Shown here: in pieces, positions 50,017 to 61,956 of the stretch
Position numbering within the stretch: position 1 is the stretch's first letter
Layout: every line of letters starts with the position of its first letter
NCBI RefSeq assembly: GCF_000143685.1
Contig: NC_014328.1
Location: forward strand, 4,216,001-4,280,000
DNA from: Clostridium ljungdahlii DSM 13528
GTDB taxonomy: Bacteria; Bacillota; Clostridia; Clostridiales; Clostridiaceae
Length of the DNA stretch: 64,000 bases
Direction: 5' to 3'
Position numbers and translations under genes: made by a program
Notes under the pieces: model-generated
Told to the model about the DNA's origin: nothing
Databases searched by the model: none
The model's input: only the letters and a program-made list of their open reading frames with translations

Positions 50017-50352
50017 TTTTATTTCCTCCTCTATTACAACATATAAAATATAAATAATAATTTCTTTAAGTTTATGGACTCATTAGTTCAAAAGTCCTAT
50101 TAAATATATTACTCCATATTGATGTTTCAGTAAAGAGCATACTTTTAACTCTACAATTAGAATTCAATGCTGCAAAGTTTTAAAAAAGTTTAAAGTCCAA
50201 ATATCAAAGTTCAAATAATGACGATTTCCTTCGTACCTCATGGAATCTATCCACAGTTGTGGATTATTTAAGATTAACTTTTCAATAGCAATTTTAAGTA
50301 ATTATAGATTTAATTTTAAACTTTATGATCCATATGTAGATTTATATGTGTA
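50017..50352. other. Gap upstream of trmL
   Basis: No coding frame is evident. It contains a palindrome ATCCACAGTTGTGGAT (near 50250) that resembles two inverted, one-mismatch DnaA boxes. It also has an isolated TCGTACCTCA that matches the loop core of the long-hairpin elements but has no flanking stem. Confidence 0.35.
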
Positions 50353-50596
50353 TTCTAACTTAAAAATCAACTTATACGAAGGCATATTTTTACAATAATG
50401 AAGTTCTTTTAAATATTTTGTACATAAGTCTTAGAAAAAAATTCGTAAAAACTTAGAACTTTTGAATTGTTTGAGGTACGAGTTTTCAAAAGTTCTTAGC
50501 TTTTTTAGAATTTTTTACTTAGACTTATCAAAATATTTAATGAACTGAAGTTTGTAAAAAATATCCGTAGTATAAGTTTGATTTTTTGTTTAGTAA
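50353..50596 (-). repeat. Long-hairpin element, copy 1 (after cwlD)
   Basis: A 244-bp near-palindrome. The ends TTCTAAC (50354) and TTTAGTAA (50589-50596) begin arms that pair along their length: AAAATCAACTTATAC with GTATAAGTTTGATTTT, TTTTTACAA with TTGTAAAAA, TTTAAATATTTTG with CAAAATATTTAA, ATAAGTCT with AGACTTAT, and AGAACTTTTGA (50455-50465) with 50486-50496. The 20-nt loop (50466-50485) contains TTTGAGGTACGAGTTT on the plus strand. It begins 15 bases past the cwlD stop. As part of the cwlD transcript the loop reads AAACUCGUACCUCA. No open frame is present. Confidence 0.8.
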
Positions 50597-50611
50597 TACC
50601 TATATTGACGA

Positions 50612-51328
50612 TCATTGAGGATTTTCATTTAAATATTTTATTATGCCATCTGAAATATTTTTTGCAAGTCTTTTTAATACATCATCATTTGACAACCTTT
50701 TTCTATCTTCATCATTAGTTATAAATCCGCATTCCATAAGTACCCCAGGTATTTTACTATATCTTAGTACTGCTAGATTTTGTCTTCTTATACCCCTACT
50801 TTCCCAACCATCATTTTTTACTGCCTGACTTTCTATTGTCTTTGCTAATCTTATCCTTTCAGATTTTTGATATCCGTTCACATCATAATATAATGCAGTT
50901 ATTCCATTAAAGTTTTTATCATTTAAAGAATTTACATGAATTGAAACAAAAACATCTGCATGATAAGAATTTGTTTTATTACCTATTTCTTTAAGTGGTA
51001 CCAGCTTGTCCTTATCTCGAGTCAAAAATACTACATCTCCCTGACTCTTTAAATAAGACTCAGCATACTTTGCTATCTTTAAAGTTAAGTCCTTTTCATT
51101 CATATTTCCATAGCTTGTCCCTCTATCTATTCCTCCGTGACCAGGGTCAAGTACTATACGATACTTTTTAGATGAACTATGATTATTTGACATTTTAACT
51201 ACAGGAGATGCAGCTACCTTCATAGAGCTAACTTGATTCAATATTTTAATATTTTTTCCAAAAATAAACATTATCAAAATTAAAAAAATGCAGGAAAACA
51301 TTAGCTTTTTTCTGCTGTCAATTCTCAT
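50612..51328 (-). CDS. cwlD: N-acetylmuramoyl-L-alanine amidase CwlD
   Basis: A 238-residue Zn amidase with an N-terminal membrane anchor or signal (LMFSCIFLILIMFIFGKNIK) and an Amidase_3 domain. Zn ligands and catalytic residues: His in VLDPGHGGIDRGTS, Glu in NEKDLTLKIAKYAE, His in VSIHVNSLND and Glu in VLMECGFITND. It matches CwlD, which removes peptide side chains during sporulation to make the muramic lactam of spore cortex that germination enzymes recognise. It is consistent with the many germination genes here. A long-hairpin repeat lies just after the stop. Confidence 0.9.
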   Translation of the reverse strand: MRIDSRKKLMFSCIFLILIMFIFGKNIKILNQVSSMKVAASPVVKMSNNHSSSKKYRIVLDPGHGGIDRGTSYGNMNEKDLTLKIAKYAESYLKSQGDVVFLTRDKDKLVPLKEIGNKTNSYHADVFVSIHVNSLNDKNFNGITALYYDVNGYQKSERIRLAKTIESQAVKNDGWESRGIRRQNLAVLRYSKIPGVLMECGFITNDEDRKRLSNDDVLKRLAKNISDGIIKYLNENPQ

Positions 51329-51504
51329 AATATCACTGTCCCTTTTTTGTTTTTTATGATATGTACATTATATCATTTGTTTCCTTAATATTCCAGTTAA
51401 TATTATTCTTCTAGCAAATTATATTTTTACACAGATTTAATTTTGTTTTAATATGCTATTAATAATTATATATTAGTATATTTGTTATAGGAGGTATCAA
51501 AAAT

Positions 51505-52074
51505 ATGAATATATGTATAGACATTGATGGAACAATTACAGACCCATATTACTGGATAGAAAGTGCCAATAAATACTTTAATAAGAGTATAACTGCCGAT
51601 AAAGTAACCCAATATGAACTTCATAAAATTATTGGAATAACAAGAGATGAGTATATAAATTTTTACAATAAAATTAAATTTAAACTTCATACTGAAGAGA
51701 CAATAAGAAAAGATGCCGTAGAAGTTACACAAAAACTGGCAAAATTAAATAATATTTATTTTGTAACTGCTCGTGAAAAATGTCTGGAAATTATAACACA
51801 TAAATACTTGAATAAATATGAAATACCTTATGATGGTGTTTACGTTCTTGGTTCTACTCATAAAGTAGATACAGCTAAAAGTTTAAACTGTGACATATTT
51901 ATAGAAGATAGTTATGAAAATGCCATTGAATTATCTAAAAGTAACTTTAAAGTACTACTAGTAGACACAAACTACAACCGCCTTCCTTTAAATCAAAACA
52001 TCACCAGGATATTAAATTGGAATGAAATATATACTACTATAAAAAAAATGCTGTTACAAGAAAAAGCCATGTAA
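51505..52074 (+). CDS. HAD-family 5'-nucleotidase-like phosphatase
   Basis: A 189-residue HAD hydrolase. The nucleophile motif is ICIDIDGTITDPYYW (D-x-D-G-T). Motif II is YFVTARE and motif III/IV is IFIEDSYENAIEL. A small helical cap lies between. Size and the DIDGTI-TDP start resemble the 5'(3')-deoxyribonucleotidase/YqfW group, so it probably dephosphorylates a nucleotide or other small phosphate ester. The start follows TAGGAGGTATCAAAAAT. Its end forms the left arm of a bidirectional terminator shared with the EamA gene. Confidence 0.82.
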   Translation: MNICIDIDGTITDPYYWIESANKYFNKSITADKVTQYELHKIIGITRDEYINFYNKIKFKLHTEETIRKDAVEVTQKLAKLNNIYFVTAREKCLEIITHKYLNKYEIPYDGVYVLGSTHKVDTAKSLNCDIFIEDSYENAIELSKSNFKVLLVDTNYNRLPLNQNITRILNWNEIYTTIKKMLLQEKAM

Positions 52075-52085
52075 CAGCATTTTCA
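52045..52085. terminator. Bidirectional terminator overlapping two gene ends
   Basis: AAAATGCTGTTAC (52045-52057) pairs with GTAACAGCATTTT (52071-52083). The left arm lies inside the nucleotidase gene. The A/T flanks suit both the rightward and the leftward transcript. Confidence 0.75.
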
Positions 52086-52090
52086 ATTCA

Positions 52091-52978
52091 TCAATTATCC
52101 TCTTTTGTGATAGCTATAATCACTGCTATTACTATAAGTGTCCCACCTATAAAAAAGCCAAATGTAAGCTGCTCGTGGAGGTAGAGCCATCCAAAAATTG
52201 AACCCGTAACAGGCTGAAAAAATAAAAATAGTGATCCAATTCCTACATCCATAAGTCCAATACCTTTATTCCACAAAAAAAATGCTCCTGCTGTAGATAC
52301 AACTCCAAGATAGATAATCCCAAGTATAAGATTTCTGTTATTTAATATTAAGGTAAAATTGTTATGCTGTGTGAGCATAAGTGGAGTGGTAAAGATTAAA
52401 GCAAATAGCATTGCATATGTAGTTATAATCAGTGAATTAAATCGTTTAGATACTATTTTTAAATAAACAGACGCTAGCGCCCAAGTCACAGCAGCTCCAA
52501 CAAGAATTATATTTCCTAAAAGATGTTTCATAAACATGGAATCCAATCCAATAACTATGATGACACCAAAGGTAGCAAGTATAAGAGAAATCATTTTTTT
52601 CTTTGTAAATAACTCCTTAAGTATGAATCTAGCAAATATAATCACAAATACAGGTGTAGATGCTGTAATTAATGATCCCATATGAGCATCTGATAATTTT
52701 GTTCCCATAAACTGGAGACATATAGAAATAAAATACCCTATAAATCCTATCCATGCAATGAGAAGCCAATCCTTCTTCTTTATAACTACCTTACGTCCTT
52801 TTTTATAATTAAAAAACATAAGTATTAAAAATAAAACTACAAAAGCAATTGCATATCTAATCCACACAAGTGTAATTGGAGAAATAAATTCCAATATATA
52901 TTTACTAACTACATACATTCCACCCCATATACAAGCTGCTAAGAATAAGCACATTGATCCAATCAATCTTTTTTTCAT
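52091..52978 (-). CDS. DMT-superfamily transporter (EamA domain)
   Basis: A 295-residue membrane protein with ten predicted helices arranged as two EamA repeats. The first begins FLAACIWGGMYVVSKYILEF with SPITLVWIRYAIAFVVLF; the second begins GAAVTWALASVYLKIVSKRF and ends in GSIFGWLYLHEQLTFGFFIG. This is a drug/metabolite exporter or importer of unknown substrate. A GGAGGTATTTAAGA start is clear. It is transcribed leftward, about 340 bp downstream of a candidate structured RNA on the same strand. Confidence 0.88.
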   Translation of the reverse strand: MKKRLIGSMCLFLAACIWGGMYVVSKYILEFISPITLVWIRYAIAFVVLFLILMFFNYKKGRKVVIKKKDWLLIAWIGFIGYFISICLQFMGTKLSDAHMGSLITASTPVFVIIFARFILKELFTKKKMISLILATFGVIIVIGLDSMFMKHLLGNIILVGAAVTWALASVYLKIVSKRFNSLIITTYAMLFALIFTTPLMLTQHNNFTLILNNRNLILGIIYLGVVSTAGAFFLWNKGIGLMDVGIGSLFLFFQPVTGSIFGWLYLHEQLTFGFFIGGTLIVIAVIIAITKEDN

Positions 52979-53209
52979 TCTTAAATACCTCCATCTTCTT
53001 ATAATTATATAAGTTAACGCCTATGAGAAGGTATTTTAAACAAACACTCAACCTTCATCCTGGATTATAAAAATACAACTGGTTGGTCATTTTCAAATAA
53101 ATCTGAAAAATACATATATATTTTTTCCACCTTTCATAACATCATGATGCAAATAAACTAAACATCCATAAGCTTCTCACTAGAACTTATTTGATGTATA
53201 TTTATGTTT

Positions 53210-53239
53210 TAGTATATCACAGCAAAATGTGATATACTA
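53210..53239. repeat. 12-bp perfect inverted repeat upstream of the EamA gene
   Basis: TAGTATATCACA (53210-53221) and TGTGATATACTA (53228-53239) flank a 6-nt loop. It lies 232 bp upstream of the EamA start. It could be an operator or a weak terminator; there is no strong T-run in either direction. The rest of 52979-53319 is AT-rich with no coding frame. Confidence 0.5.
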
Positions 53240-53319
53240 TTCTATTTAATCCTGATCTATATTTATACAAGCTCCTTAAAATTTTTAACTGACACTACAT
53301 ATTAATTCAAAAAAATTTA

Positions 53320-53471
53320 AGCATAGCAAAAGGCCCCCAAAATCAATCAGAGGTCTTATATACACTTGGATTATCGGATGGGCGGTGTATCCATCATCTC
53401 AGGTACTCTTTCGAGTGTGTCGGGAACCATTTCCGACCTCAATAATCCTATAATTATCATATTCACTTGTC
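53320..53471 (-). ncRNA. Candidate structured RNA with its own promoter and terminator
   Basis: Transcribed leftwards from about 53471. An 81-nt core (53448-53368) is closed by GGATTATTG pairing with CGATAATCC. Inside are a GTCGG/CCGAC hairpin, ACTC-GAAA-GAGT with a GNRA tetraloop, and GATGG/CCATC. GGT in one loop could kiss ACC in another. Downstream, AAGACCTC can pair with GGGGGCCTT, ending in TTTTG near 53325. The GNRA loop exists only on this strand, favouring it. I do not recognise the class. It could be a riboswitch for the EamA gene or a stand-alone small RNA. Confidence 0.5.
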
Positions 53472-53477
53472 ACAATT

Positions 53478-53506
53478 ATTATACATTCTTTACTTATTTT
53501 TGTCAA
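53478..53506 (-). promoter_or_regulatory. Consensus sigmaA promoter in the end of the PBECR gene
   Basis: Minus strand TTGACA (53506-53501), 17-bp spacer, TATAAT (53483-53478). Both boxes and spacing are perfect consensus. It lies across the last codons and stop of the PBECR gene and points toward the candidate structured RNA. Confidence 0.7.
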
Positions 53507-53885
53507 TAATAAATTTCTTAACTCTTCCACTATGTAACCTTCGACGAAGCTTTGATTCTTGAATGTCATACATTGTAGATACATATAAATAATTTTCATC
53601 AACATCTAACTTTATTCCAACTAGGATATTTTTATCAAGTACTTTAATTAATTCTACAGTATCTCCTTTTTCATTTGGATTTATCCCGACATAATCAGGA
53701 TTTTTTATGATATTTGATATATCATCTATATGTTTTAAACAATTAAAATGTTTTTCCTTTATTAAATGGGCTGGAAGTCCTTTGGAGCGATATATTTTTT
53801 GTAATGGTAAATTTGAACCAATTATATCATTTAATTTTTGATAAAACCTTCCAACTTGAATTAATTTATCATCCGTACCTTCCAT
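53490..53885 (-). CDS. PBECR-type nuclease-fold domain protein
   Basis: A 131-residue protein whose C-terminal half carries KHIDDISNIIKNPDYVGINP, NEKGDTVELIKVLDKNILVG and DENYLYVSTMYDIQESKLRR. This resembles the phage-associated PBECR domains (barnase-EndoU-colicin E5/D-RelE-like fold), toxin-like RNase modules often found in polyvalent phage proteins. Here it stands alone with a good AGGAGATGGGAAA start. No antitoxin is recognisable beside it, and the window shows no other phage genes. It could be a domesticated domain or a relic. Its last bases contain the promoter of the candidate small RNA. Confidence 0.55.
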   Translation of the reverse strand: MEGTDDKLIQVGRFYQKLNDIIGSNLPLQKIYRSKGLPAHLIKEKHFNCLKHIDDISNIIKNPDYVGINPNEKGDTVELIKVLDKNILVGIKLDVDENYLYVSTMYDIQESKLRRRLHSGRVKKFIIDKNK

Positions 53886-54032
53886 TTTCCCATCTCCTCT
53901 ACAAAATATCTGCTCCTATAATCTTATAACTTTTGGGACAAGTAGTAAATATTTTGTAGAAAATTAGTTATTTTTGTACCCCATAGCTTTTACATATCAA
54001 CATCCTCTGCTACTTCAAAGTTCTATTATAAG

Positions 54033-54079
54033 ACAAAAATACACCAGTCACTCAAATAATTCTTTAAGTTCTAGTGTAT
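54033..54079 (-). terminator. Terminator of tRNA-Leu
   Basis: Minus strand ATACACTAG (54079-54071) pairs with CTGGTGTAT (54047-54039) with one wobble or mismatch, followed by TTTTTG. It lies about 50 bp after the tRNA 3' end. Confidence 0.55.
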
Positions 54080-54125
54080 AAAATTTTTATATTAAAATTT
54101 AATTAATACTGTTAACCATTGACTT

Positions 54126-54212
54126 TGGTGCGGATAACAGGACTTGAACCTGCATGAAGTTTCCCTCACTAGAACCTGAATCTAGCGCGTCTGCCAGTTC
54201 CGCCATATCCGC
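54126..54212 (-). tRNA. tRNA-Leu (anticodon CAG)
   Basis: A complete 87-nt class II tRNA on the minus strand. The acceptor stem is GCGGATA/TATCCGC with discriminator A and an encoded CCA (54128-54126). The anticodon stem is CTAGA/TCTAG with loop TTCAGGT, giving anticodon CAG, which reads CUG leucine codons. A long variable arm (TGAGGGAAACTTCA region) and the T-loop GGTTCAAGTCC are present. The long variable arm is expected for leucine. Confidence 0.95.
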
Positions 54213-54266
54213 ACAAATTACTTATCTATTATAGCATACTTTTTTAATTAAGTTAATACGTAACTT

Positions 54267-55424
54267 CTATTTTGATACTGAAGAATTGGAATATAAATTA
54301 AATACTATGTTACCACCTGAAGTATAACCTTGTATGTATATAGGATATTTAAAATCATTTCTAAATTTATAATCTATGTTTCCGTAATCTACCGTAGCAT
54401 CCATTCCTTCAGGGACATAATGAACAGGCATAGTATGATGAGTCCTTTCCGTAGATGTAAGTCCTGCTTTAGCAACTGCATTATAAAGCGTGGTAGATAC
54501 CTGGCATATTCCACCGCCAAGTCCTGACTCCACTTTATCTCCAATAATAACAGGAGCTGCCTCATATCCTTTGGCTGCAGTTCTCTGACCTACAACATCA
54601 TTGAAGCTAAAAGTATCTCCTGGCATTACTACATGTCCATTTATGCTGCTAGTAGCAAGTGATATATTATTTGCTCTTTCACCAGAAGATATGCCGCCAT
54701 AGGCTGTACTAAAACTAGATATTAATGTGTCCACAGGTTTAAGATCATCTTCCTTTATTTTAGCTTTAGTAGTTTTGAGTACCGCTTTTACAGTTAAATC
54801 CTGATCTGAATTATTATCTATTTTAGATTCAATATCTTTTTTCAAAGCTTCTTTATCTACTTTAATCCCATCTTTCTGTGGTATTACTGAAAACTTCACT
54901 CCTCCCATCTCAAGAGATGCATTCACAGGTTCTGTATCAACTTCACTTGCAATTTTATCTACCATATTATCTATAACTTTGGTATTATAAGAAAATTTCA
55001 AATTATAGTTTACATTTTTAGGATTCTTTAATAATTCATATTTTTTAAATATATTGCTGCTTTTTCCATAAGAATAGGCCAACTTTATCGTATCATCCAA
55101 GTTGTACGTAAAACTTAAACTCGAATAAGGTAATTCATAACTTTTATTTCCTGCAGTTATAGTGATTTGTTTCTGTTGAAATTTGTTTAAATATTCGCTG
55201 CTCATTATACTTTTAGCCTGATCTTTAGTTTTTTCAGAAAGATCCGTATTATTTATAGAAACTCTAGGATAAATTAAGTTATCCCAGTATTTTACATCAT
55301 TATAATGGTAAACTATAAATCCGCAGCTTATACTCAAAAAAATAGTTAAAGCAGCTAAACCTAGTATTTTTAATGTTCCGCCTGACTTTCTCTTTGACTT
55401 CCTAGTCTTTCTTTTTCCACTCAT
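54267..55424 (-). CDS. VanW-family protein with peptidoglycan-binding-like domain
   Basis: A ~385-residue envelope protein. A very basic cytoplasmic start (KRKTRKSKRKSGG) and one membrane helix (ILGLAALTIFLSISCGFIVY) lead to an extracytoplasmic part. That part has a PG_binding_4-like region (about 60-230) and a C-terminal VanW domain with FSFNDVVGQRTAAKGYEAAP, GGGICQVSTTLYNAV and HTMPVHYVPEGMDATVDYG. VanW proteins occur in glycopeptide-resistance loci and widely in spore formers; the molecular function is unknown. The start is placed at the second of two adjacent ATGs, six bases from GAGGTG. It is monocistronic. Confidence 0.88.
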   Translation of the reverse strand: MSGKRKTRKSKRKSGGTLKILGLAALTIFLSISCGFIVYHYNDVKYWDNLIYPRVSINNTDLSEKTKDQAKSIMSSEYLNKFQQKQITITAGNKSYELPYSSLSFTYNLDDTIKLAYSYGKSSNIFKKYELLKNPKNVNYNLKFSYNTKVIDNMVDKIASEVDTEPVNASLEMGGVKFSVIPQKDGIKVDKEALKKDIESKIDNNSDQDLTVKAVLKTTKAKIKEDDLKPVDTLISSFSTAYGGISSGERANNISLATSSINGHVVMPGDTFSFNDVVGQRTAAKGYEAAPVIIGDKVESGLGGGICQVSTTLYNAVAKAGLTSTERTHHTMPVHYVPEGMDATVDYGNIDYKFRNDFKYPIYIQGYTSGGNIVFNLYSNSSVSK

Positions 55425-55595
55425 CATTATCACCTCTTCACTTTCACATAGTTATTATACTATAGAGTAATAGCTTTTATATATAAAAATTATTAATTTA
55501 ATTATTACTAATTTGTAACAAACAAACATAACTTTTATGCTATCATGAAAGTATGTTTGTTTTTTAAATATACTTAAATATGGAGGAGTACATAA

Positions 55596-56834
55596 ATGAA
55601 AGCTGAGATATTATGCGTTGGTACAGAGATTTTACTTGGAGATATAGTAAATACAAATGCACAATTTATTTCCAAAGGATTAGCTGATCTTGGTATAGAA
55701 GTGTATCACCAATCTGTTGTGGGAGATAATCCTCAGAGACTTTTAGATGAGTTTAGGAAATCTTTTGAAAGAACTGACATCATAATTACAACTGGAGGAC
55801 TTGGACCTACACAAGATGATCTAACTAAAGAAACTGGTGCTGAATACTTTAACAGGGAAATGATTTTAGATAAAAATTCACTTACCCAATTAGAATCTTA
55901 TTTTAAGAAGATGGGGAAATCAAATTTGGAAGGCAATAATATAAAGCAAGCTTACTTTCCTGAAGGTGCTTCTATATTTCCTAATCCACATGGTACGGCT
56001 CCTGGATGTTGTATGGAGCAAAATGGCAAAATTTTAATAATACTTCCCGGTCCTCCAAAAGAGGCAAAGCCTATGTTTGAAAATTATGTAGTACCATTTT
56101 TAAAAAAGTACAGTAATGGAGTAATAAAATCTAAAACACTGAGAGTTTGTGGTATAGGCGAAAGTTCTATGGCTGAGAGTGTCTCAGATCTTATAAACAA
56201 TAGTGTAAATCCCACTGTAGCTCCTTATGCAAAAGAAAATGATACAATACTTAGAATTACTGCAAGGGCAAATACAGAAGAAGAAGCTGTAGAGCTTATA
56301 AAACCTATAGAATCTAAAATTAGAGAAAAACTAGGGATAAATATATATGGTGAAAATGATGACACTATGGAAGAGGTTATAGGGAAATTATTGATAAATA
56401 AAGAATTAACTATATCTTCTGCAGAATCATGTACTGGTGGGCTAATAGCAGCAAGACTTGTAAATTATCCTGGCATATCTGCTGTATTTAAAGAAGGTGC
56501 TGTCACTTATACCAACGAGGCCAAAATGAAAAGACTAGGAGTAAAAAAGGATACCCTGGACAAATTTACTGCTGTTAGTTCTGAAACTGCAAAAGAAATG
56601 GCAGAAGGTATAGCTAAAACAGCAAATACCGATATAGGCATAGCTACTACAGGCGTTGCAGGTCCTGGCGGCGGTACTTACGAAAATCCTGTAGGTCTAG
56701 TATATATAGGACTTTATATAAATGGAAAGACTTATGTTAAGAAGTGCCAATACTCTGGCAGCAGAGATGTAGTAAGACAAAGAGCAACTATGACTGCTCT
56801 CGATTTGATAAGAAGACACATTATAAACTCATAG
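55596..56834 (+). CDS. cinA: CinA-type competence/damage-inducible protein
   Basis: A 412-residue two-domain protein. The N-terminal MoCF/COG1058 domain (EILCVGTEILLGDIVNTNAQ, TTGGLGPTQDDLTKE, ILPGPPKEAKPMFENYV) is a pyrophosphatase-like module acting on ADP-ribose or NAD-derived substrates. The C-terminal CinA domain (SSAESCTGGLIAARLVNYPG, ATTGVAGPGGGTYENPVGLV) is a nicotinamide-nucleotide amidase. Together they recycle pyridine nucleotides. The start follows GGAGGAGTACATAA. It is not in a recA operon here. A long-hairpin element starts three bases after its stop codon. Confidence 0.93.
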   Translation: MKAEILCVGTEILLGDIVNTNAQFISKGLADLGIEVYHQSVVGDNPQRLLDEFRKSFERTDIIITTGGLGPTQDDLTKETGAEYFNREMILDKNSLTQLESYFKKMGKSNLEGNNIKQAYFPEGASIFPNPHGTAPGCCMEQNGKILIILPGPPKEAKPMFENYVVPFLKKYSNGVIKSKTLRVCGIGESSMAESVSDLINNSVNPTVAPYAKENDTILRITARANTEEEAVELIKPIESKIREKLGINIYGENDDTMEEVIGKLLINKELTISSAESCTGGLIAARLVNYPGISAVFKEGAVTYTNEAKMKRLGVKKDTLDKFTAVSSETAKEMAEGIAKTANTDIGIATTGVAGPGGGTYENPVGLVYIGLYINGKTYVKKCQYSGSRDVVRQRATMTALDLIRRHIINS

Positions 56835-56837
56835 AGT

Positions 56838-57080
56838 TTCTAAACGAAAAATCAACTTATGCTCCGAATATTTTTACAACCACAAGTACGTTAAATATTT
56901 TGATAAGTCTAAGCAGAAAATTTACAAAAATCTAAGACCTTTTGAAAACTCGTACCTCAAACAATTCAAAAGGTCTAAGTTTTTTTGTGAATTTTCCACT
57001 AAGACTTATATACAAAATATTTAAATGTACTTGCTTATTGTAAAGATATGCCTACACATAAGCTGATTTTTTAGTTAGAA
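56838..57080 (+). repeat. Long-hairpin element, copy 2 (after cinA)
   Basis: A 243-bp near-palindrome closely related to copy 1, in opposite chromosomal orientation. Ends are TTCTAAAC (56838) and GTTAGAA (57074-57080). The apical stem is AGACCTTTTGA (56935-56945) with TCAAAAGGTCT (56966-56976), where copy 1 has AGAACTTTTGA with TCAAAAGTTCT: two A-T pairs replaced by C-G on both strands. The 20-nt loop (56946-56965) is the exact reverse complement of copy 1's. It starts 3 bases after the cinA stop, and the cinA transcript would read AAACUCGUACCUCA in the loop. Confidence 0.8.
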
Positions 57081-57185
57081 CCACTATAGATTGTAAATCT
57101 TGGTTGTATTTATAACTTTAGCATTTAAATCAAACTGGCAATTTGGATAAGTTTAATTGTAGAGTTAACTATCTATATGTACAAA
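57081..57185. other. Spacer between hairpin elements 2 and 3
   Basis: AT-rich, about 105 bp, with no open frame, promoter or terminator that I can support. Confidence 0.4.
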
Positions 57186-57428
57186 TTCTAACTAAAAGTT
57201 AAAATATACTTGACGATATTCTGACAAAATTGAAATCACACTTAAAAACTTTTCTTATAAGTCTTAGATTCGTATTTTTTGAAAATCTTAGAAGCTTAGA
57301 TATGTCTGAGGTACGAGTTTATCTAAGCTTCTTTAGATTTTCAAAATACGAACTATAGACTTATCAAAAGTTTTTATGGTGATGAAATTTGTCAGCATAT
57401 CCTCTGTATATTCAACTTTTACTTAGAA
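57186..57428 (-). repeat. Long-hairpin element, copy 3 (after nth)
   Basis: A 243-bp near-palindrome with ends TTCTAACT (57186) and ACTTAGAA (57421-57428). Its arm sequence differs from copies 1 and 2 over most of its length yet still pairs: CTGACAAA with TTTGTCAG, AAAACTTTT with AAAAGTTTT, TTCGTATTTT with AAAATACGAA, and AGAAGCTTAGAT (57290-57301) with ATCTAAGCTTCT (57321-57332). Only ATAAGTCT/AGACTTAT and the loop TGAGGTACGAGTTT are kept. It ends 21 bases from the nth stop. In the nth transcript the loop reads AAACUCGUACCUCA. Confidence 0.8.
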
Positions 57429-57449
57429 ACTCTATGTAAATTCTAAACT

Positions 57450-58094
57450 TCAAGACTTAGTTTCCTCTGGATGATTGAAGTATTCACAATAAGGGGCTAG
57501 AGGGCAATGCTCACAATCAGGTTTTCTTGACTTACATATGCGCCTTCCATGCCATATTAAATAATGATGTGAATCACTCCACATACTTTTAGGTATATTT
57601 TTCATAAGTTCCATTTCTACTTTGTGAGGAGTAGTCCCTTTTGCAATTCCAAGTCTATTTGATACTCTAAATACATGAGTATCCACTGCAATTGCTGGAA
57701 CTCCAAAGGCGTTTGATAAAACAACATCCGCAGTTTTTCTGCCTACTCCTGGAAGTTCTATCAATTGTTCCATAGTATGTGGTACCTCTCCATCATACTT
57801 TTCAACAAGTTCTCTGCTAGTTGCAAGTATATTCTTGCTTTTATTTCTAAAAAAGCCACAGCTTTTTATCTTTTCTCCTAATTCTTCCTCTGTTAGAGAT
57901 ATCATTTTTTCAGGGGTATTATATTGTTTATACAATTCTGATGTAACTTTATTCACTCTTACATCGGTGCATTGAGCTGAAAGCATAGTGGACACTAGCA
58001 ATTCATAAGGAGATCCAAAATTCAATGCACATTTAGCTTCTGGATAGGTTTCTTTCAGTACTTTCAATATATTATCTATATTTTGTTTATCCAA
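57450..58094 (-). CDS. nth: Endonuclease III
   Basis: A 214-residue base-excision repair glycosylase/AP lyase for oxidised pyrimidines. The helix-hairpin-helix and catalytic region is LIELPGVGRKTADVVLSNAF then GVPAIAVDTHVFRVSNRLG, with the catalytic Lys in the first motif and Asp in VDTHV. The [4Fe-4S] ligands are C-x6-C-x2-C-x5-C (CKSRKPDCEHCPLAPYC). It starts at TTG (58094) behind GAAGGTGAT. It lies 15 bp after plsC in the same direction. Confidence 0.96.
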   Translation of the reverse strand: MDKQNIDNILKVLKETYPEAKCALNFGSPYELLVSTMLSAQCTDVRVNKVTSELYKQYNTPEKMISLTEEELGEKIKSCGFFRNKSKNILATSRELVEKYDGEVPHTMEQLIELPGVGRKTADVVLSNAFGVPAIAVDTHVFRVSNRLGIAKGTTPHKVEMELMKNIPKSMWSDSHHYLIWHGRRICKSRKPDCEHCPLAPYCEYFNHPEETKS

Positions 58095-60691: not shown

Positions 60692-61603
60692 CTAATCATA
60701 TAATCCCATGGATAGATATTTCTCTCCTCCATCTGGTGCTACAGTTACTACTTTTTTACCTTTTCCAAGTTTTTTTGCCACTTGAATTGCTGCAGCTATA
60801 TTAGCTCCTGAGGATATACCAACTAGTATTCCCTCTTCTTTTCCCATAAGTTTAGCATATTTAAAAGCATCTTCATCTGTTACAGTTATGATCTCATCTA
60901 CAATTTCTGATTTGTAGATATCAGGTACAAACCCTGCTCCTATACCTTGTATTTTGTGAGCACCAGTTTTACCTCCTGATAGAACTGGTGAACCTGCTGG
61001 CTCTACTGCAACTACCTTTACATCTTTATTGTGCTTTTTCAAGTTTTCTCCTACTCCTATTGCTGTTCCACCAGTACCAACACCAGCTACGAAAGCATCT
61101 ACATCTTTTAAATCCTTTAAAATTTCCTCTGCTGTAGTTTCATAATGTTTTTTAGGATTAGCAGTATTTATAAATTGTTGTGGTATATAGTACCCCTCTT
61201 TATCTTTACCAATTTCATAGGATTTCTCTATAGCTCCTTTCATGCCTTTAGCTCCATCTGTCAAAACTAATTCTGCACCATAAGCCTTTATCATATTTCT
61301 TCTCTCTACACTCATAGTTTCTGGCATTACAATTGTAACTTTATATCCTTTTAATTTTCCTATCATTGCAAGAGCTATACCCATATTACCACTAGTTGGC
61401 TCCACTATTGTGTCACCCTTTTTTAAAAGTCCTTCTCTTTCAGCTCTTTCAACCATACCAAGGGCAGCTCTGTCTTTAATACTTCCACCAGGATTAAATT
61501 TTTCAAGTTTAACATATATATCAGCTGCGTCCTCATTTTTAAAATTATCAAGTTTAAACAAAGGTGTATTACCTATCATATCTATAGCATTAGTAAATAT
61601 CAT
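60692..61603 (-). CDS. cysK: Cysteine synthase (O-acetylserine thiol-lyase)
   Basis: A ~303-residue PLP enzyme making cysteine from O-acetylserine and sulfide. The PLP lysine is in [20 protein letters not shown]. The substrate loop is [20 protein letters not shown], the phosphate loop is [15 protein letters not shown], and [11 protein letters not shown] is present. The start is the ATG at 61603, seven bases after GGGAGG; an earlier TTG belongs to the ribosome site. A complete T-box leader with a cysteine specifier lies directly upstream, so expression should rise when tRNA-Cys is uncharged. Confidence 0.95.
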
Positions 61604-61671
61604 TTTAATACCTCCCAAAATTTTATATAAAAATTAATATTTTAAGCATGAAATTTTACTTTGAAATTAAA

Positions 61672-61956
61672 AAAACTTCATCTCTATATGTTATATAGAG
61701 ACGAAGTTTATACTCCGTGGTTCCACTCTAATTAGATTTTTAAAAAAATCCAACTCTTAATCGAACACAGCGCTATGTTCTATCACTATAACGGGTGAAT
61801 CCGATGTAATCTACTATTAATTCGACCACATAACTCCAAAGGGCACTTCACTTAAACTTAATTTAGAAACTTTCACCAACTGTTTCTTCTCTGCAAAATT
61901 TAATTTAAGTTACTTTTCTTTTTCAAAGTATTCTTGAGTGTTTTACTATGATTTAT
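61672..61956 (-). promoter_or_regulatory. T-box riboswitch (Cys specifier) for cysK-cysE
   Basis: The leader contains the T-box core AGAGTGGAACCACGGAGT (61729-61712), whose UGGN region binds the tRNA acceptor end. Stem I is upstream, with GAAGTGCCCTTTGGAGT; TGC there (61845-61843) fits a cysteine specifier. A terminator hairpin is formed by ACTTCGTCTCTATAT and ATAGAGATGAAGT followed by TTTTTT (61708-61672). Uncharged tRNA-Cys should favour the antiterminator. Assignment of the specifier rests on position and on the downstream cysteine genes. Confidence 0.88.

Follow-up and report, generated by a model that had tools for sequence, protein, structure and literature searches.

A large family of long-hairpin repeats, apparently undescribed, at gene 3' ends in Clostridium ljungdahlii and its relatives

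Few bacterial repeats have so far been tied to gene ends. The attC site of integrons is an imperfect hairpin directly 3' of a stop codon, in fixed orientation and with the folded strand antisense to the gene. Among dispersed repeats, REP sequences are short extragenic palindromes, and in REPINs the inverted doublet is likely the unit and singlets are relics (PMC3116915). The SPRITE repeat of Streptococcus pneumoniae, an AT-rich sequence of about 30 copies with an 18 base pair (bp) duplex and a U-rich tract, is dispersed near the 3' ends of coding sequences (CDS), is over-represented between convergent genes and is terminator-like (PMC3049150). Bacterial miniature inverted-repeat transposable elements (MITEs), including BOX and RUP, are short and non-coding, with terminal inverted repeats and strong folding (PMC10969869), and Clot-1 of Clostridium tetani is an intergenic structured repeat of 74 bp with 19 copies (PMC2267715). 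Here we describe a family of hairpins of about 245 bases, recognised from three copies in a 64,000-base window of the Clostridium ljungdahlii DSM 13528 genome (bases 4216001-4280000 of one 4,630,065-base contig). What is new is that the elements lie directly 3' of stop codons and in a single orientation.

Family size, gene-end position and pairing

A genome search for the loop TGAGGTACGAGTTT with at most one mismatch gave 74 copies (34 on the plus and 40 on the minus strand), and the reversed pattern, used as a control, gave none. With copy 1 of the window as a DNA query, full-length copies at 82-96% identity were found; because only 40 of the 235 candidates in this search were scored, the 74 copies are a lower bound. 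Allowing two mismatches in the fetched regions gave 77 loops, of which one false match (3852326) was left out before clustering. The 76 true loops comprise subfamily A (44), subfamily B (30) and two odd sequences. Mean identity is 82% within A and likewise within B, and the two have a common loop and unlike stems. The elements end in TATAGAGTTTCTAA and its complement, which form terminal inverted repeats, and have no coding capacity. No Rfam family matches them above its gathering score, in agreement with the original prediction, made from the window alone, which placed the loop in no described family. We found no paper on the hairpin family in a search of the openly readable literature, which is not proof of absence; passages of PMC8632094 and PMC6429828 hold no description of it either. 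The elements form a large, apparently undescribed family of long-hairpin repeats.

Position was scored in C. ljungdahlii DSM 13528 with a simple open reading frame caller. All 44 solo elements have a gene 3' end on the loop-antisense side, 39 of them within 40 bp of the stop codon (median 8 bp) and the other five at 136-440 bp; on the opposite side, no more than two come within 40 bp of one. In the full loop set, the exceptions to this orientation are the distal members of pairs and the false match. Gene-end placement in a single orientation suggests that the elements mark where genes end. Outside this strain the orientation rule is strong, not absolute. It is obeyed by 24 of 27 elements scored in further genomes of the bacterial family, after four of 27 loci, with loops unlike the pattern (L340, L342, L343, L349), had been dropped. 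In a scoring of named loci, which took 80 of 109 and in which many elements sit at locus edges, it holds for 15/16 elements in C. carboxidivorans, 25/37 in C. muellerianum, 4/8 in C. drakei, 8/13 in C. ljungdahlii ERI-2, 5/8 in C. ragsdalei and 1/1 in C. polyendosporum.

Fifteen of the 16 adjacent pairs are mirror-image (-,+) and one is (+,+). A remnant of a second element lies on the distal side of 22 of the 44 solos, in 18 cases from the other subfamily, and on the gene side of three. As the distal remnants are mostly of the other subfamily, A and B probably make up one inverted unit, of which the half nearer the gene is retained, and this pair, roughly 460-640 bp together, is probably what spreads. 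The original prediction had missed that the elements keep strictly to gene 3' ends, that their orientation follows a rule and that A pairs with B, and its view that these are not decaying repeats runs contrary to the many copies that are partly deleted or in decay. Short fused-end derivatives are also present, several beside gene 3' ends. One of these, L406:2202-2248 (near 3658701 in C. ljungdahlii DSM 13528), is a compact A-tract/hairpin/T-tract between convergent genes and looks as if an element had been trimmed to a short bidirectional terminator.

The three copies in the window (Table 1) were found where they had been predicted, each as one end-to-end hairpin. With short flanks included, their folding energies are -83.2 kcal/mol (z -10.7) for copy 1, -99.7 kcal/mol (z -13.2) for copy 2 and -94.2 kcal/mol (z -13.0) for copy 3, and none of 200 shuffles was equally stable in any of the cases. 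The differences quoted among their stems are likewise found in the sequence. The outer ends had been set too short: the palindrome of copies 2 and 3 runs some 8 bases further outward, taking in CATAGAGTTTCTA (56830-56842) on one side and its complement (57424-57436) on the other, so the cinA stop codon falls inside the outer end of copy 2.

Table 1. Features of the window, numbered from its first base
Feature	Position	Strand	Remarks
Copy 1	50353-50596	+	Subfamily A, solo; 3' of the CwlD-like amidase gene
Copy 1 loop	50472-50485	+	TGAGGTACGAGTTT, exact match
Copy 2	56830-57080	-	Subfamily A; next to the 3' end of cinA, whose stop codon overlaps the outer end CATAGAGTTTCTA
Copy 2 loop	56946-56959	-	TGAGGTACGAGTTT, exact match
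Spacer	57081-57185		Separates inverted copies 2 and 3
Copy 3	57186-57436	+	Subfamily B; next to the 3' end of nth
Copy 3 loop	57307-57320	+	TGAGGTACGAGTTT, exact match
cinA	55596-56834	+	Named by NCBIfam; convergent with nth; copy 2 at its 3' end
nth (endonuclease III)	57450-58094	-	Named by NCBIfam; copy 3 at its 3' end
CwlD-like amidase gene	50612-51328	-	CwlD match under the model's curated cut-off
Skipping-rope RNA (RF02924)	53369-53447	-	Rfam match
T-box leader (RF00230)	61694-61935	-	Rfam match; upstream of the gene at 60692-61618

Two other repeats were noticed beside these hairpins. The spacer contains recurring pieces, for example TTAACTCTACAATTAAACTTATCC, that are common to the flanks of other copies and are possibly another palindromic repeat. 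A third repeat, with a different stem and the identical loop core TGAGGTACGA(R/T)GG, lies beside copy 1 at 50228-50240 on the minus strand; its core has 27 genome matches at no more than one mismatch, 20 of which were inspected (L251-L270).

Covariation and the strand that folds

Stem covariation was measured on the apical part of 19 sequences (18 distinct); these represent six species or strains and are confined to B type and the C. carboxidivorans group. In this set 88.8% of cells pair, compared with a shuffled mean of 80.0% and at best 51.7% for slid structures. Both sides have changed in 16 of the 45 pairs (shuffled mean 10.4, with 0/500 shuffles reaching 16; slid structures 1 to 7), and 75 cells are doubly changed (shuffled mean 29.3; slid structures at best 25). 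A mixed alignment had broken the arms, leaving a model (R1) without base pairs, and an apical model (R2) was used in its place. The automatic structure of R2 misplaces the apical stem; pairs were counted on a structure derived from single folds, a derivation that itself favours this structure over slid versions in the cells paired. The fold of the B alignment has 69 pairs, 23 of them doubly changed, with 68 of 2063 cells broken; that of A has 62 pairs, 20 doubly changed, with 93 of 2727 cells broken.

The original prediction, which is partly supported as a whole, had named a lack of homologues, or stem differences that do not covary, as findings that would speak against it; neither was obtained, because homologues are abundant and their stems covary. 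Its further step, from covariation to selection on structure, is not fully supported. Copying from arm to arm can also keep the arms of a DNA palindrome complementary, so covariation need not mean selection on RNA, and such copying could explain part of what is seen here. Better evidence than covariation comes from an unpaired T that is invariant in both CTTAG blocks and from mismatches on the loop strand, where G.U outnumbers A.C, which together argue for a constrained loop-strand fold. The G.U:A.C counts are 104:71 in subfamily A, 64:48 in B, 142:68 in C. carboxidivorans, C. muellerianum and C. drakei, 14:10 in Caloramator and 52:40 in other genera, an excess in 5/5 groups to which no probability is attached because the copies are related. 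Conservation also reaches beyond the loop and the one stem motif pair to which it had been confined, as the ends and the CTTAG blocks are conserved too.

Terminator-like signals were scored by strand. A first detector was too insensitive (6/74 control ends), and the looser one used has a shuffled background that is not small. Among 60 element-bearing gene ends, a terminator-like hairpin was found in none between stop codon and element, in 34 within the element on the gene strand, and in seven beyond it; control gene ends have one in 15 of 56 cases (shuffled 2/56). A terminator-like hairpin with a T-tract occurs in B on the loop strand of 27 of 30 elements and on the gene strand of seven (shuffled 11). 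The cores of C. carboxidivorans, C. muellerianum and C. drakei carry the signal on the loop strand in 29 of 58 cases and on the gene strand in none, and Caloramator has it in 5/5 and 1/5, respectively. These counts indicate that a plain sense terminator is not general and, subfamily A excepted, they place the signal on the loop strand. Promoter signal in the region does not exceed chance (98 promoter-like sites, 92.1 expected).

Distribution and comparison of genomes

The exact loop is present in 3 of 13 genomes of the genus, with 64, 73 and 71 copies. In a scan of genome contigs, 109 stretches were obtained; their sources are C. muellerianum, C. carboxidivorans, C. ragsdalei, C. ljungdahlii ERI-2, C. 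drakei, C. polyendosporum, Caloramator and one metagenome-assembled genome. Model R2 has matches in 33 of the 206 genomes that represent the bacterial family, spread over 11 of 46 genera, and in 4 of 391 genomes in a sample of the class, one of them outside the family. Between genera the stems diverge widely and a core like TGTYTGAG-x-CGAGTT recurs (judged by eye); stable-looking loops are found on one strand in many genera. C. quimbayensis and one relative carry the hairpin in the spacer between 23S and 5S ribosomal RNA (rRNA), where the loop strand is the one transcribed; these spacer loci (L088, L103, L104 and L147, in Caloramator and a relative) are accompanied by non-rRNA sites. Two genomes of one genus (G173 and G176) have one match each, near-identical in sequence and adjoining genes of equal lengths. 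Our best reading is that of an old, clostridial, non-autonomous repeat family.

Closely related strains show how individual sites change. When ERI-2 (G006) is compared with C. ljungdahlii DSM 13528 (G000), 16 of 58 element places in G006 match the flanks of no element locus in G000 (14 by a looser first test). At shared sites, A and B can replace each other with orientation kept (L284/L079, L286/L067, and L322/L046 on one flank). Among 12 paired sites chosen by hand, three are collinear, one is collinear but truncated (L317/L062), and four, each of which matches its own site best (92.9, 94.3, 85.5 and 78.4%), are inverted in place. The convergent pair cinA-nth is kept in all 12 other genomes of the genus. 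Its gap is 615 bp in G000, 861 bp in G006 and 503 bp in G008, which have elements, and 16, 71, 92, 48, 47, 47, 47, 66, 43 and 1 bp in the ten genomes without them, seven of which have a small hairpin there, as read from printed folds. The nth-side arm of G006 and G008 begins with about 20 bases like the G000 nth side and continues as the A arm of the G000 cinA side; this alignment indicates a swap of the outer arms with a breakpoint near the end, within the last 20 or so bases. At a second site, a classical terminator-like hairpin in G000 stands in place of the proximal element part of G006. At a third, only about 25 bp of the element are left in G000; this apparent empty site was rejected as evidence of insertion, being a deletion. 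The RAYT-type Y1 transposase (PF01797) has 0 matches in G000, and dependence on it is rejected for this strain; the domain counts 3 in G006 and 2 in G008, which bear elements, and 18 in G002 and 15 in G011, which are element-free.

Interpretation and relation to known systems

Our preferred reading, to which we give a probability of roughly one half, is that of a REPIN-like, non-autonomous repeat built as an inverted pair, in which the half nearer the gene is retained and would serve as a boundary to transcription arriving from downstream. An inverted A/B hairpin pair would come to lie directly 3' of a stop codon, at gene ends where element-free relatives have either a small hairpin or next to nothing. 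The element adjoining the gene is then retained and the distal one decays, from which it follows that the proximal one probably has a cis-function at the gene end. The constrained-looking strand, antisense to the adjacent gene, would act on transcription approaching the gene from downstream, by termination or RNA cleavage, and the same folded strand may also be recognised by a recombinase or transposase. Computation establishes the family, its covariation, placement and orientation, the pairs with their remnants and the in-place inversion at some sites; mobility, the strand recognised and the boundary role are inferred.

Several observations weigh against this reading. No mobilising enzyme was found, nor an autonomous parent, 14 extra places with end motifs having given remnants or nothing, and no clean recent insertion with target duplication is present among the sites compared. 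Four of the 12 paired sites are closer to a different G000 copy, so part of the pattern may stem from one copy exchanging with another. The G.U bias is possibly mutational in part. In A, a terminator-like hairpin with T-tract is about equally frequent on both strands (29/44 loop strand, 33/44 gene strand, shuffled 14), and the loop-strand signal of the three other species is limited to half of the cores. Caloramator obeys the orientation rule in only 2 of 7 cases, and there, in the 23S-5S rRNA spacer, the loop strand is the transcribed one, a misfit with a strong terminator.

It is possible, though we hold it only tentatively, that the family is a purely selfish MITE- or REPIN-like element that targets gene 3' ends or terminators and has no host function, the loop strand being single-stranded DNA whose fold a transposase or recombinase recognises. 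The high copy number and patchy spread, the many broken copies and the stable-looking loops on one strand across genera would fit it, as would in-place inversions and swaps made by an enzyme acting at the ends; but loss falls on the distal half (22 distal against 3 gene-side remnants), which mere tolerance of a selfish element does not predict, and the single copies of G173 and G176 are vertically kept. A combined role seems doubtful, in which the folded antisense-strand hairpins at gene ends would be both the substrate of a site-specific recombinase that inverts and moves two-hairpin units and orientation-specific insulators blocking antisense transcription into the gene. Somewhat harder still to favour is an intrinsic terminator of the upstream gene, mobile like SPRITE. 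The element does sit where terminators sit, 34 of 60 gene ends have their terminator-like hairpin inside it and none before it, and at one site G000 has a classical terminator-like hairpin instead; yet the gene-strand signal in B is below its shuffled level and absent from the 58 cores of the three species, and the constrained fold is on the opposite strand. Very improbable, in our judgement, is that the elements encode small structured RNAs of one family, transcribed from the loop strand: the constrained loop-strand fold and the transcribed strand in the 23S-5S spacer would suit them, but promoter signal is at chance level, and a fixed place 3' of stop codons with dozens of copies is unusual for a small RNA.

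Several syngas-fermenting acetogens carry this large structured repeat family in abundance, and it would join the few bacterial repeats linked to gene ends. It matters for annotating genomes, comparing strains and designing 3' untranslated regions in these industrial hosts. It opens to test how such elements arrive, why one orientation is retained, and whether folded repeats insulate convergent clostridial genes.

Among the known systems, REPINs offer a parallel in their dispersed extragenic palindromes, and the expected doublet arrangement is found here in the inverted adjacent pairs and in the distal remnants at half of the solos. The family differs in that each half is a hairpin of about 245 bases where a REP is short, and in its fixed place 3' of stop codons, its two subfamilies per pair and the absence of PF01797 from the genome (PMC3116915). 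With SPRITE it has in common the enrichment at CDS 3' ends; a duplex followed by a T-rich tract on the gene strand is not general (B 7/30, other-species cores 0/58), despite 33/44 in A, and the long hairpin, conserved loop, inverted pairs and mostly antisense terminator signal set it apart (PMC3049150). Like MITEs, the elements are short, non-coding and strongly folding with terminal inverted repeats, although here no parent insertion sequence or target duplication is established (PMC10969869). Clot-1 is similar as a structured intergenic clostridial repeat, a comparison by description and not by sequence (PMC2267715). No cassette arrays were seen at the fetched loci, and no integrase search was made. 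The family nevertheless resembles attC sites in forming a hairpin 3' of a stop codon, in fixed orientation and with an antisense folded strand, and differs from them in its longer stem and its location at ordinary chromosomal genes.

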